Assembly (NCBI GenBank): GCA_903917345.1
Contig: CAIXAE010000008.1
Span: 62,001 to 126,000, forward strand
Origin: an uncultured Methylococcaceae bacterium
Lineage (GTDB): Bacteria > Pseudomonadota > Gammaproteobacteria > Methylococcales > Methylomonadaceae
Reading direction: 5' to 3'
Length of the DNA stretch: 64,000 bases
Part shown: positions 3,791 through 28,060 of the stretch, in pieces
How the letters are laid out: each line of letters begins with the position of its first letter
Position numbering within the stretch: the first letter of the stretch is position 1
Made by a program: the position numbers and the translations under genes
The notes under the pieces: generated by a model
Told to the model about the DNA's origin: nothing
The model's database searches: none
The model's input: the letters and a program-made list of their open reading frames with translations, nothing else

Positions 3791-5422
3791 TTGTATTTAG
3801 AACATTTTCATTTAAACGAGTTTCCATTTACGATTTCTCCTGATCCGCACTTCATGTACATGAGCAAGCGGCATCAAGAGGGCTTAGCTCATCTTTTGTA
3901 TGGAATTGAATTTGGAGGTGGTTTTGTAGCCTTAACAGGAGAAGTAGGGACAGGTAAAACGACTTTATGTCATTGTCTCTTACAACAATTACCAGAAAAT
4001 ATTGATCTGGCTTTAATTCTAAATTCCCGATTGAATTCTTTTGAGTTAGTGGCAACCTTATGTGATGAACTCGGTATTAGTTACGATAAAAGCACTCAGT
4101 CTTTGAAATTTTTAATAGATCAGTTAAATCAACATCTACTTCTTACGCATGCAAAAGGTAGGCAGACTGTTCTATTAATAGATGAAGCGCAGAACTTAAG
4201 CATGGAAGTGCTAGAGCAACTCCGTTTATTAACTAACTTAGAAACCACTAAAACCAAGTTATTGCGCATCATTTTAGTGGGACAACCTGAATTAAAAGAA
4301 CTACTACAAAGGCAAGATCTTCGACAATTGAATCAACGTATTACGGCTAGATATCATTTGTTACCGTTATCGCTTTATGAGACCCGCGCTTATATAAGGC
4401 ACCGATTGAGTATTAGTCAGGGGGATGTTTATGTGTTTAGAGAGTCAGCTATCAAAAGGATTTACCAAATAACAAAGGGCATACCACGGTTAATTAATTT
4501 ATTGTGTGATAGATCTCTTTTAGGGGCTTATGCTTCGCATGTTTATAAAGTTAATACTAATATTGTTAATCATGCTGCTTTAGAAATTATCCCTGAAAAC
4601 CCATTAAACACTCGTTTTACTCGCACAGCAGTCTTTACAGTCATCATTGGAATTTTAGCTACATCTGCTTACCTATACAAAACCAATAGTAAAGTTGAAA
4701 TTGCACCCGTTCCGTTAACTCAGCAACAAAACGTCGCTAAAGCTTCAGAACCTAAACAGCTTAGCGACTCACACATTCTTGTTGATTCATCCAAAAAAAT
4801 TGCTGCTGACTCTTTTACTGACTGGTTAAGTAATCCAGCCAATACGCTAGATAATGTATTGAAATATACACTTGCACGATGGGGTAAAACAAATCAAAGT
4901 AATCAAAAGGTTGATTGTACTAGTATCAAAGTCACGGGGTTACGATGCGAAATAGGTAAGGCTTCTTGGAAAGAGTTACTAAAATTAAATAAACCCGTTA
5001 TTTTAGAGTTTGTTTTAGATGATGCCAGTAAACATCATGTTTTATTTACAGGGTTTTCAGAGCATCAAACCATCGTCCACTTCGACCCTGATGTTAAGTT
5101 TTCCGTCGCAGATATTTTAAAATATTGGGAGGGCTATTATTTAACGCTACAGGCTCCTGAATTAAAAGCAGTCAAGATTATTGCTTATGAGCAAAATTCA
5201 GAAAATGTGTTGTGGTTACGCTATGTGTTAAATAGTTTTGACGGCCAATCCACACAAGTGGATCGTCCACTGTATTATGATGAAAACTTACTTAAGCGCG
5301 TTCAAAGCTATCAACATGCACAACATTTAGGCGAGGATGGTAAAGTCGGTCCAAGCACCTTAATCAGTCTAAAGAATTATGCTCAAAAACTTGAATATTC
5401 GCACTTAACCATTAACGAATAA
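3791..5422 (+). CDS. ExeA/GspA-like AAA ATPase with C-terminal peptidoglycan-binding region (TTG start)
   Basis: MYLEHFHLNEFPFTISPDPHFMYMSKRHQEGLAHLLYGIE...GEVGTGKTT Walker A, LLIDEAQ Walker B; C-terminal repeat like PG_binding_1. Confidence 0.9.
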   Translation: MYLEHFHLNEFPFTISPDPHFMYMSKRHQEGLAHLLYGIEFGGGFVALTGEVGTGKTTLCHCLLQQLPENIDLALILNSRLNSFELVATLCDELGISYDKSTQSLKFLIDQLNQHLLLTHAKGRQTVLLIDEAQNLSMEVLEQLRLLTNLETTKTKLLRIILVGQPELKELLQRQDLRQLNQRITARYHLLPLSLYETRAYIRHRLSISQGDVYVFRESAIKRIYQITKGIPRLINLLCDRSLLGAYASHVYKVNTNIVNHAALEIIPENPLNTRFTRTAVFTVIIGILATSAYLYKTNSKVEIAPVPLTQQQNVAKASEPKQLSDSHILVDSSKKIAADSFTDWLSNPANTLDNVLKYTLARWGKTNQSNQKVDCTSIKVTGLRCEIGKASWKELLKLNKPVILEFVLDDASKHHVLFTGFSEHQTIVHFDPDVKFSVADILKYWEGYYLTLQAPELKAVKIIAYEQNSENVLWLRYVLNSFDGQSTQVDRPLYYDENLLKRVQSYQHAQHLGEDGKVGPSTLISLKNYAQKLEYSHLTINE

Positions 5423-5424
5423 TT

Positions 5425-6153
5425 ATGTCTTTTATTTTAAATGCCCTTCGTAAGTCTGAACAAGAAAGACAGAAGCTACAAGTGAATAGTTTGAGTTTTG
5501 ATCAAGCAGAATCCCCTGTTAGTATTAATCGACGAAAAATGGTGGTTTATAGTGCCATTTTTATAGCCGTTAATTTAATACTCACAGTGGGTATTATTAG
5601 CCTAATAAGGTCTCCAGTTGCGGTATCTAAGGATGAAATTAAAGAAAAAACAGAAATAGACTCTAAGCGTGAATTAATAAAACCAGTTGAAAAAAACCTT
5701 GAGCCAGATAAGAGCACTGTAATTCCAAATGCACCTATTGCAAACACTTCCATTGCCGATCTAATTGAAGAAAAGCCCAATGCTATCGGTGAGTCTCCTA
5801 TAACAAAAACGTTTACAGCCAAGCCTGAGGAAATTAATATCCCAGCTAAAGTGCCTGTAAAAGCAAATAGTCAGCAAAAATCCATTGTTGAAGCTAACCC
5901 TGAAGTAGGTTTAACTAAAGATACGTTGCCTTACTTGCGCGAGTTACCTTTTACGTTTCAACAAACCGTACCTGATGTCACTATTAATGTATTTGTGTAT
6001 TCAGATCAGCCTAGTGAATGTTTTGTGATGATTGATGGTGTTAAATATAAAATTGGGCAGTCTTTACCCAATGCAATGCATATTAAAGACATCACTGTGA
6101 ATAGTCTGGTTGTGGAATATCAAAATAAGGCTTTTCAGATCGATAGACCTTAA
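5425..6153 (+). CDS. GspB-like general secretion pathway protein
   Basis: MSFILNALRKSEQERQ N-terminus, single TM and C-terminal GspB-like domain; follows ExeA-like gene. Confidence 0.85.
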   Translation: MSFILNALRKSEQERQKLQVNSLSFDQAESPVSINRRKMVVYSAIFIAVNLILTVGIISLIRSPVAVSKDEIKEKTEIDSKRELIKPVEKNLEPDKSTVIPNAPIANTSIADLIEEKPNAIGESPITKTFTAKPEEINIPAKVPVKANSQQKSIVEANPEVGLTKDTLPYLRELPFTFQQTVPDVTINVFVYSDQPSECFVMIDGVKYKIGQSLPNAMHIKDITVNSLVVEYQNKAFQIDRP

Positions 6154-25488: not shown

Positions 25489-26550
25489 TTGAAACTTTCT
25501 TTTTATGATCTAAATTTTGCCGATTTAGAAGCTGTTTTAAAATTAAACAATTTAAATACATCTGCTGCATCAGTATTGTTTAATTGGCATTATAAGAAGA
25601 AGCAAACAGTTCAATGTAAAGAGAACATCGCCAAGACTTCAATAGATTTTTTTCAGGATCATTATGATTTTTCCTTGCCTGAAATTGATACTGTTCATGA
25701 ATCATCGCATGATAAAACCGTAAAATTTCTCTTTAAGCTAGCTGATGGCCATAAAGTTGAAACTGTGCTTATCCCATTTCATAACAAATATTCCATATGC
25801 CTATCATCGCAAGTGGGTTGTGCTATGAATTGCTCCTTTTGTTTTACTGGTAAACAAGGACTCCATAGAAACTTATCCACGAGTGAGATTGTGGGACAGT
25901 TAATTCAAGCTTGGTGTTGGCTAGCTAACAATAGACCCGGTGAAGAACGTATCTTAAATATAGTGTTTATGGGGCAGGGTGAGCCTTTACATAATTTTGA
26001 TGCTGTTAAAAAAGCCTGTGAGATTTTTTTATCAAAACACGGCACATCTATTGGTATACAAAAAATCACCATATCAACGGCGGGGTATATTCCTGGGCTT
26101 AAGCGCTGGCGTGAGGAAATTCCTGGTGTCAATCTAGCATTGTCATTACATTCTACTTTAAAAGAAAAGCGTAATGAATTGATTCCAATTAATAAAAAAT
26201 ACCCACTAACTGAGGTTTTGAACTATATAGACCAGATTCCTCTACAGAAAAAGCAGTTTGTGACTTATGAGTACATTCTGATTAAGGATCTGAATGATTC
26301 AGCTGATGATGCTAAAGAACTTGGTGAGTTACTGGCAGGTAAAAGCGCCTATATCAACCTTATTCCATTCAACGCATTTCCAGGATCAAATTATCAACAG
26401 CCGGAACACGATAAAATACGACAGTTTAAAAAAGTATTAGATACCTATAAGATTCCTACCTTAATTAGAGCAACAAAAGGTGATGATGTATTAGCTGCTT
26501 GTGGACAGCTCAATTCAAAAAAAACAATTCAACATTCGGCCCAATATTGA
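25489..26550 (+). CDS. RlmN/Cfr-family radical SAM methyltransferase-like protein
   Basis: CAMNCSFC radical-SAM CxxxCxxC, FMGQGEPLHNFDAV, C-terminal catalytic Cys in AACGQL. ORF track starts at TTG 25465; in-frame TTG 25489 has GGAG 5 nt upstream and is more plausible. Confidence 0.9.
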   Translation: MKLSFYDLNFADLEAVLKLNNLNTSAASVLFNWHYKKKQTVQCKENIAKTSIDFFQDHYDFSLPEIDTVHESSHDKTVKFLFKLADGHKVETVLIPFHNKYSICLSSQVGCAMNCSFCFTGKQGLHRNLSTSEIVGQLIQAWCWLANNRPGEERILNIVFMGQGEPLHNFDAVKKACEIFLSKHGTSIGIQKITISTAGYIPGLKRWREEIPGVNLALSLHSTLKEKRNELIPINKKYPLTEVLNYIDQIPLQKKQFVTYEYILIKDLNDSADDAKELGELLAGKSAYINLIPFNAFPGSNYQQPEHDKIRQFKKVLDTYKIPTLIRATKGDDVLAACGQLNSKKTIQHSAQY

Positions 26551-27060
26551 ACACTTTATTATAGTATTCAAACTTTAGGCCCAACACTCAAACTTGAGGT
26601 CTACTAGTGTTATTTAAAGACTGTATCCCAAACCTAAGGTCCAACAAATAAACTAGGGTGTGAGGTAAATTATTGCTGCATCACTCCGCAAACCGGCGAA
26701 CTACTTATCAAACAAGATTACCCGTACTAAAACTTTTGTGCTGGCACTCAAACCAATAATCCAGCAGCCAAACTTGTGTTCCAGCACTCAATTGTAAGTT
26801 TTAATATTCTTGCTAGAAGTCCCTTACTTACATCTAAGGTGTAACAACCACATAATTGTCCAAGCGCTGAAACGCGATGTCTAATGCTAACACTTATCTT
26901 CTAGCAAATTTATTGAAGGTTCATTGCTTGAATGTAATTGCTAATGCACAAATAAAAGTTCCAATACGAACACTACAGTTGCATCACAAACATCGACGCT
27001 TTAATACCCGAACACAGGTTTTAGAGAGCGACCAAAAGTTTTAGAAAGCCGACTGAAATC
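26521..27060 (+). repeat. Array of about 27 diverged tandem units with exact 20-bp period, immediately 3' of (and slightly overlapping) the RlmN-like gene
   Basis: Cutting the sequence every 20 nt from 26521 aligns units such as atagtattcaaactttaggc / ccaacactcaaacttgaggt / ctgtatcccaaacctaaggt / ccagcagccaaacttgtgtt / ccagcactcaattgtaagtt without gaps. Over 26541-27060, column 13 is pyrimidine in 25/26 units, column 2 pyrimidine in 24/26, column 3 A in 22/26 and column 12 A in 22/26. Confidence 0.85.
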
Positions 27061-27176
27061 GAAGAAATATCCAAAATATTTGATAATACAATCATTAATA
27101 GCCGACAAATTATGCATTTTACCTCGCTATACTCTGTGCCGTTGGTTAAAGTAACTTCTTCGCAGTAATGTTGTGT

Positions 27177-27270
27177 TTCGTTGGACAATAAAAAACCCGC
27201 GAAGCCATATGACTTGCGGGTTTATCAACAACTGTGCACTTCTCTGTACTTGTATGTGGTACGAGAGCCG
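27177..27270. repeat. Left attachment-site repeat (attL) with tRNA-Leu 3'-end fragment and duplicated tRNA terminator
   Basis: 27177-27262 is identical to 37656-37741 (86 bp); identity continues after a 1-bp indel to 27270. Confidence 0.9.
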
Positions 27271-28060
27271 TACTCAAATTATAGTATATCCAATTGAAAT
27301 TATTGTTGTTATATTTGATAAATGTAATTTTGGACACGAATTCGGACACGATTTGTTTTTTTGTTATCTCTTGTATTGGGTTAGCCAAAAGCAATATCCA
27401 TATTACGTTACGATTCTAATTCACTTTGACTTAAATTCAAAATTCTTGCAGTGGCATACAATTGAATATACTAATGTCATGTTAAATTAATAGGTTGTCA
27501 TTTGGAAATCTAACGTTGGGTTGCCAAATTTGAATTACATTACCGTATTAAAAAGCGTCTTCTTTTTATATCCATCCTTTTCCACACAGAAATTGTGGAT
27601 AATCCTGTTTGCACACCTCTCAACAATCTCACCAATTACTGTTTCAAAGAATCATTACTCAGATTGGTTAATAGTTGGCCAACTGAAGATGAAGAGGGGG
27701 GCATTAATAAAATAGGATTGATAGAGGGTAAACAATTTTCTACTCAAAAGCTAATCTAATTGGCTGGAAGCATTAAAAAGTTTTATTTCTGGCCAAATTC
27801 TTTTTCACATTACTAATTTTCTTGAGTATTTTTTCCAGATTTCGAAAATTTTTTCCGGCAGGTATTTCAACTTTTCGAAATTAATAGTTATTTGAAGTCT
27901 AAAAACAATATCTAACGTCTAAGTTTGGCGGAAGTGATGGCGGGAGGTTAATATCTATATGAAGGTAAGTTCGAAGTGGAGATAACATTTACTAGGTACA
28001 CTAACTTTAGTAGGTGTATAGTATAGTTTCATTAAACTAATTGTTATACATGGAGATAAA

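Follow-up and report, generated by a model that had tools for sequence, protein, structure and literature searches.

The parC site of the ParMRC system in pSK41 reportedly carries 20-bp repeats that are bound by the ribbon-helix-helix (RHH) protein ParR, and parM and parR adjoin such centromeres. BIME/REP elements are dispersed intergenic palindromic repeats whose unit types sometimes alternate and which contain a GC-rich hairpin of the REP type; REP palindromes are accompanied by a RAYT transposase. In the TIGR-Tas systems, a Tas protein with a Nop domain is accompanied by an adjacent dual-repeat array which gives rise to 36-nt tigRNAs (PMC12045711). We analyzed a 64,000-nt stretch of DNA (the window) from an uncultured Methylococcaceae bacterium that contains a degenerate array with a 20-bp period. 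Like TIGR arrays, it has a short tandem period, mixes conserved with variable positions and lacks long identical spacers, but its unit is 20 bp rather than a 36-nt dual-spacer unit (PMC12045711), and its variable positions are conserved between copies. A search of the genome with the Nop model (PF01798) gave no match, with the reservation that Tas proteins may be too distant for this model, and no Tas-like neighbor was identified; assignment to TIGR-Tas was rejected.

We found that the window array belongs to a large family of DNA arrays, all non-coding, in this methanotroph and its relatives. These arrays are characterized by a regular period, dyad symmetry, dispersed colinear copies free of indels, several sequence families and linkage with a gene for a fibronectin-III (FN3) protein, and together these features suggest an undescribed DNA-binding platform. 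Degenerate arrays of this type escape repeat finders and BLAST, and no description of them was found in the open-access literature searched.

Period and units of the window array

The features of the locus, in window coordinates, are as follows.

25489–26550, plus strand: RlmN/Cfr-like radical-SAM paralog (TIGR00048).
26521–27060, plus strand: 20-bp phased degenerate array of ~27 units, an orphan copy of the W-type array family.
26581–26600, plus strand: best consensus unit, CCAACACTCAAACTTGAGGT; the copies on C13 and C36 have preserved this unit at the corresponding place in the array.
27061–27109, plus strand: fading 3' end of the array with about two decayed units; it is weakly homologous to the corresponding ends of other copies (AAATATTTGATAAT).

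Sequence identity at lags of 20, 40, 60, 80, 100 and 120 was 0.36–0.40 in the array, compared with ~0.26 at the remaining lags. When 540-bp windows were scored over four lags, the array region reached 0.426, as against 0.335 for the next-best unrelated region in the window and a maximum of 0.319 among 1000 Markov shuffles. The ~27 ungapped 20-bp units that the initial annotation had recognized by eye at 26521–27060 were borne out far above chance, with the lag-20 signal and its multiples that it had expected relative to shuffled sequence. Its hand counts were also reproduced: pyrimidine occupied column 1 in 23/26 units, column 2 in 24, column 5 in 22 and column 13 in 25; A occupied columns 3 and 12 in 22 units each and column 10 in 18; purine occupied columns 6 and 18 in 22 each, and T column 20 in 16. 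The phase was unbroken, as had been claimed, from 26541 to 27040 (at least 25 units). The array begins within the final codons of the RlmN-like gene and has faded out by ~27080–27109. Its consensus is YYARYAYTNAAAYTTWAGTT, with a two-turn period and dyads centered at columns 5.5 and 15.5; an early remark that attC-like palindromes were absent was incomplete, since the unit consensus is dyad-symmetric. Because the units share only ~42% identity, the array is missed by Tandem Repeats Finder. This low identity, the absence of identical repeats and the interleaving of conserved and variable positions separate it from CRISPR arrays, in which unique spacers of constant length lie between near-identical repeats. 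The array had been set apart from CRISPR at the outset, and the view that it does not code for protein was supported as well.

The tail of the paralog (KKTIQHSAQY) is translated from the array start, whereas the C-termini of its relatives read QLNSK(N) followed by a stop, which indicates that gene and array were joined in this lineage. Arrival of the array accounts for this most simply. A second rlmN copy, elsewhere in the genome, is 39% identical to the window paralog. Homologs of the latter (25489–26550) with 72–84% identity are present in Methylococcales, and also in bins labelled Desulfobulbaceae/Desulfocapsaceae and Nitrospira, a distribution suggestive of wide horizontal transfer. Two other repeats were observed in the window. 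A hairpin-bearing repeat at 27168–27279 (CCCGCGAAGCCATATGACTTGCGGG plus flank), with a core of ~47 bp (27177–27223), recurs in most genomes of the genus, and a dispersed intergenic repeat at 27570–27732 has several copies in a sister genome and one more in this genome.

Dispersed copies and the genome-wide population of arrays

A sequence-model search detected exactly five arrays of the window type (W-type) in this genome (the window, C13, C24, C35 and C36) and further ones in four related species of the genus. In searches of this kind, neither the other genera of the family nor 368 additional genomes of the class yielded a genuine array. Single weak matches in other family genomes (E ~0.005–0.02 each) did not extend into arrays, and a match in G196, which fell in a coding frame, was rejected. 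The copies in the window, C13, C36 and a sister species (G213:C303) could be aligned unit by unit over 500 nt without an indel, at 63–81% identity. Length differences of other W-type copies were mostly multiples of 20, for example a 40-bp loss or triplication, and a decayed copy (G039 C49) had two 1-bp shifts. Bacterial non-coding DNA usually gathers indels alongside substitutions, and their absence among these diverged copies points to selection on spacing, in agreement with the initial annotation. Between colinear copies, identity was 0.78 in conserved columns versus 0.66 in free columns, and the between-column variance was exceeded by almost none of 2000 permutations. The "free" columns were also fairly well kept, more than a pure operator model requires.

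W-type copies follow a gene or tRNA with the same orientation, and the colinear copies occupy unrelated places, among them the 3' end of rlmN, a position next to tRNA sequence and one behind a cytochrome gene. An orientation bias of W-type copies toward gene 3' ends was not retained as a general rule; arrays overall occupy all gene arrangements. At L103:4464–6410, a tRNA cluster and an apparent tRNA 3'-end fragment immediately ahead of the C13 array flank toxin-antitoxin genes, an arrangement reminiscent of an island end.

We also scanned 1.84 Mb, about three quarters of the 2.5-Mb genome, counting as non-coding those periodic regions without a covering open frame of at least 150 codons. At thresholds set while the search was under way, 52 non-coding periodic regions were found, 41 of them with a period of 20–22, 31 or 40–42, and the same scan of 0.96 Mb of shuffled DNA gave none. 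The period-selected regions resolved into 41 phased, non-coding arrays, which fall into several families unrelated in sequence. These arrays were intergenic, usually 150–560 bp long, with a period of 20–22 bp except for one with 31 bp (about three helical turns). Among 618 kb from other species, representing the surroundings of RlmN homologs rather than a random genome sample, the scan gave one clear non-coding case (L036, discussed below). A second family, with a 21-bp period, had three colinear copies without gaps, and two further families had very recent gap-free copies (808 and 569 bp, 94–96% identity). The recent 808-bp copies of a 21-bp array (L262:18313–19120 and G000 C3 near 80164–80971; 94%, no gaps) include the apparent 3' end of a small antitoxin-like gene. 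Some younger arrays had homogenized units and A/B super-repeats of 40/42 bp.

When reverse-complemented and shifted by 10 bp, the unit profile matched itself, with r = 0.62 for four arrays and 0.71 for eight. Since one axis in a periodic array implies a second one half a period away, the two dyads of each unit count as one result. Unit dyad symmetry was detected at p<0.05 in 29 of 38 arrays tested; this test is somewhat permissive, as coding periodic controls passed in 6 of 22 cases, but the excess in arrays is still clear. The consensus was palindromic in many arrays, and the palindromes differed by family. No match was found that would indicate a phage or plasmid origin of the arrays, and pattern matches in viral contigs were rejected as unrelated perfect repeats or chance.

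The linked helical and FN3 gene

A gene for a ~205-aa protein with a helical part and an FN3 domain recurs beside arrays. In the scanned 1.84 Mb, 10 of 12 full-length FN3-like genes had an array within ~230 bp. Of the long intergenic gaps, those next to an FN3-like gene contained an array in 10 of 11 cases, and the others in 20 of 232 (Fisher p = 1.9e-9). The remaining 31 of the 41 arrays, including the window copy, had no adjoining FN3-like gene. When loci in other genomes of the genus were picked by the protein alone, an array was present at 17 of 23, with a period of 21 in 15 of them and 20 in two. The array was just upstream of the FN3-like gene in 15 of 16 loci with recorded gene strand; in the clade nearest to the W type, it was downstream. 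The 31-bp array (L259:17375–17766; G000 C40) lies directly 3' of a helical and FN3 gene, and its units alternate strictly, giving a super-period of 62 bp.

Pfam analysis of the ~205-aa protein returned only a weak fn3 match. Its predicted structure, which was built from two sequences and had a modest mean pLDDT of 66.6, combines a helical N-terminal part with a C-terminal sandwich matching solved FN3 domains, and a DNA-binding fold was absent from this model. Searches of plasmids, phages and viral contigs gave no match for the protein. Besides, a second uncharacterized family (~231 aa) was found near three 21-bp arrays (L288:4608–5303, L240:13772–14467 and L232:1251–1940), an association that was not significant.

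Explanations for the arrays and comparison with known systems

Symmetry and helical spacing are kept, the sequences differ among families and RNA pairing is not conserved, which suggests that the arrays work as double-stranded DNA. They may well be spacing-constrained platforms for a putative dimeric or oligomeric protein, an explanation in which we place about even confidence; of the ideas in the initial annotation, a phased platform for a presumptive binding protein, with about two helical turns per unit, also gained support. An array would then be a row of equally phased sites on a single helix face for a dimeric protein, which may load cooperatively and then wrap, bridge or mark the locus. 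The first candidate binder would be the helical and FN3 protein, or a protein under its control. The window copy would be an orphan whose arrival at the rlmN paralog's 3' end changed the final codons of that gene. A more specific proposal, which we put forward only tentatively, is that FN3 proteins and arrays together make up a new chromosomal system present in multiple copies, where each protein would recognize its own array, the protein and array sequences would co-diverge, and a regular nucleoprotein filament with a two-turn step would be formed, the window array being an orphan site.

The main rival is a mutational origin without function, because several arrays are locally homogenized. 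In this scenario, quasi-palindromic 20/21-mers were tandemly duplicated at a helical-turn step during replication or repair, spread by recombination and decayed. It would explain the locus-specific homogenization with 40/42-bp A/B super-repeats, the length changes in whole-unit multiples, the periods in multiples of ~10.5 bp (including the 31-bp array) and the recent gap-free copies of 569 and 808 bp. However, it does not easily account for colinear copies that differ at 19–37% of positions without indels, for evolutionary rates that differ among columns, for the W-type consensus kept by otherwise dissimilar arrays, or for the strong linkage with one gene family in many genomes, and we regard it as a possible but minority explanation.

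An improbable alternative is a non-autonomous mobile element with intergenic insertion, whose units would be bound by a transposase or recombinase encoded elsewhere and acting in trans. Although the unrelated locations of the colinear copies (rlmN 3' end, tRNA sequence, cytochrome gene) and the sharp ends of recent copies fit such an element, neither a target-site duplication nor a shared terminal motif was seen at the two recent copies, each of the many sequence families would require a recombinase, and the conserved place beside FN3-like genes is unlike random insertion.

We consider it quite improbable that the array is transcribed into an RNA whose tandem hairpins or short segments act as guide, sponge or scaffold. 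Its units are near-palindromic, as are some young 42-bp super-units, W-type copies have a gene or tRNA upstream on the same strand, and the plus-strand fold energy had z = −3.3 relative to dinucleotide shuffles. When W-type arrays were compared with column shuffles, however, most z values were within −2 to +2, except for two arrays which exceeded this range on one strand (−3.1 and −2.7), and fold energy was mostly explained by column composition. The alignment fold of the W family (alifold) had an unfavorable covariation term, and base-pair covariation in this family showed no excess over other pairs. Similarly, double changes at dyad centers were kept no more often than at other centers in the W family and two other families. 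Promoter- and terminator-like sites were no more frequent than in shuffles, in scans that were uninformative, and Rfam gave no match to the array and one weak chance match inside the coding gene. These results do not place the arrays among structured non-coding RNAs, and RNA hairpins were rejected for the W family and the two other families. The guide or array-RNA role proposed in the initial annotation was also at odds with the finding that the "variable" positions are kept between colinear copies and that compensatory covariation is absent. Symmetry without RNA covariation resembles that of DNA sites to which a dimer binds.

It is hardly credible that array RNA or DNA serves the adjacent RlmN-like enzyme as substrate, guide or cofactor, as was first proposed, because the array, which lies directly 3' of this gene and supplies its last codons, had no window-type counterpart beside the gene at any of 80 homologous loci and none nearby at 78 of them, and the remaining W-type copies of this genome do not adjoin RlmN. 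At one of the other two loci (L037), the same array type was 3 kb off, directly 3' of a different, 204-aa gene. At the other (L036), in another Methylococcaceae genome, a 21-bp degenerate array is located shortly downstream of the RlmN homolog (4941–5430), and its sequence is unrelated to that of the window array. A class of RlmN/Cfr-associated arrays was rejected, and by these comparisons the RlmN-like gene appears to be a neighbor and not a conserved partner of the array.

With regard to other known repeats, the arrays resemble minisatellites (VNTRs) in being tandem and in changing length by unit multiples. Minisatellites have high unit identity generated by slippage, whereas the window array has ~42% unit identity, colinear dispersed copies, dyad symmetry and a period fixed near two turns; some younger arrays are homogenized, but membership in this class was rejected. 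Plasmid iterons, which are near-identical repeats adjoining a replication initiator gene, were also rejected, as the units are degenerate, the arrays chromosomal and no Rep gene was recognized nearby. Like BIME/REP, the arrays are dispersed, intergenic and palindromic, some with alternating units, but they differ in their strict 20/21-bp phase, in the many unrelated families per genome and in having no GC-rich hairpin of the REP type. The likeness to ParMRC lies in tandem short repeats of about two turns as sites, putative in our arrays, for symmetric dimers and in the common module, an array upstream of a small gene. No ParM or ParR was recognized among frames neighboring the arrays, and plasmid searches gave no match for them. 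Unlike parC, they have 15–30 highly degenerate units in many families and copies per chromosome, and the linked protein is helical and FN3 rather than actin-like or RHH. The ~40 arrays in the examined three quarters of the 2.5-Mb genome share a rule of DNA geometry (two-turn period and dyad symmetry) rather than a sequence, and one uncharacterized gene family adjoins arrays across a genus. Provided that they are indeed protein platforms, the arrays would represent a new bacterial way to mark or shape chromosomal loci.
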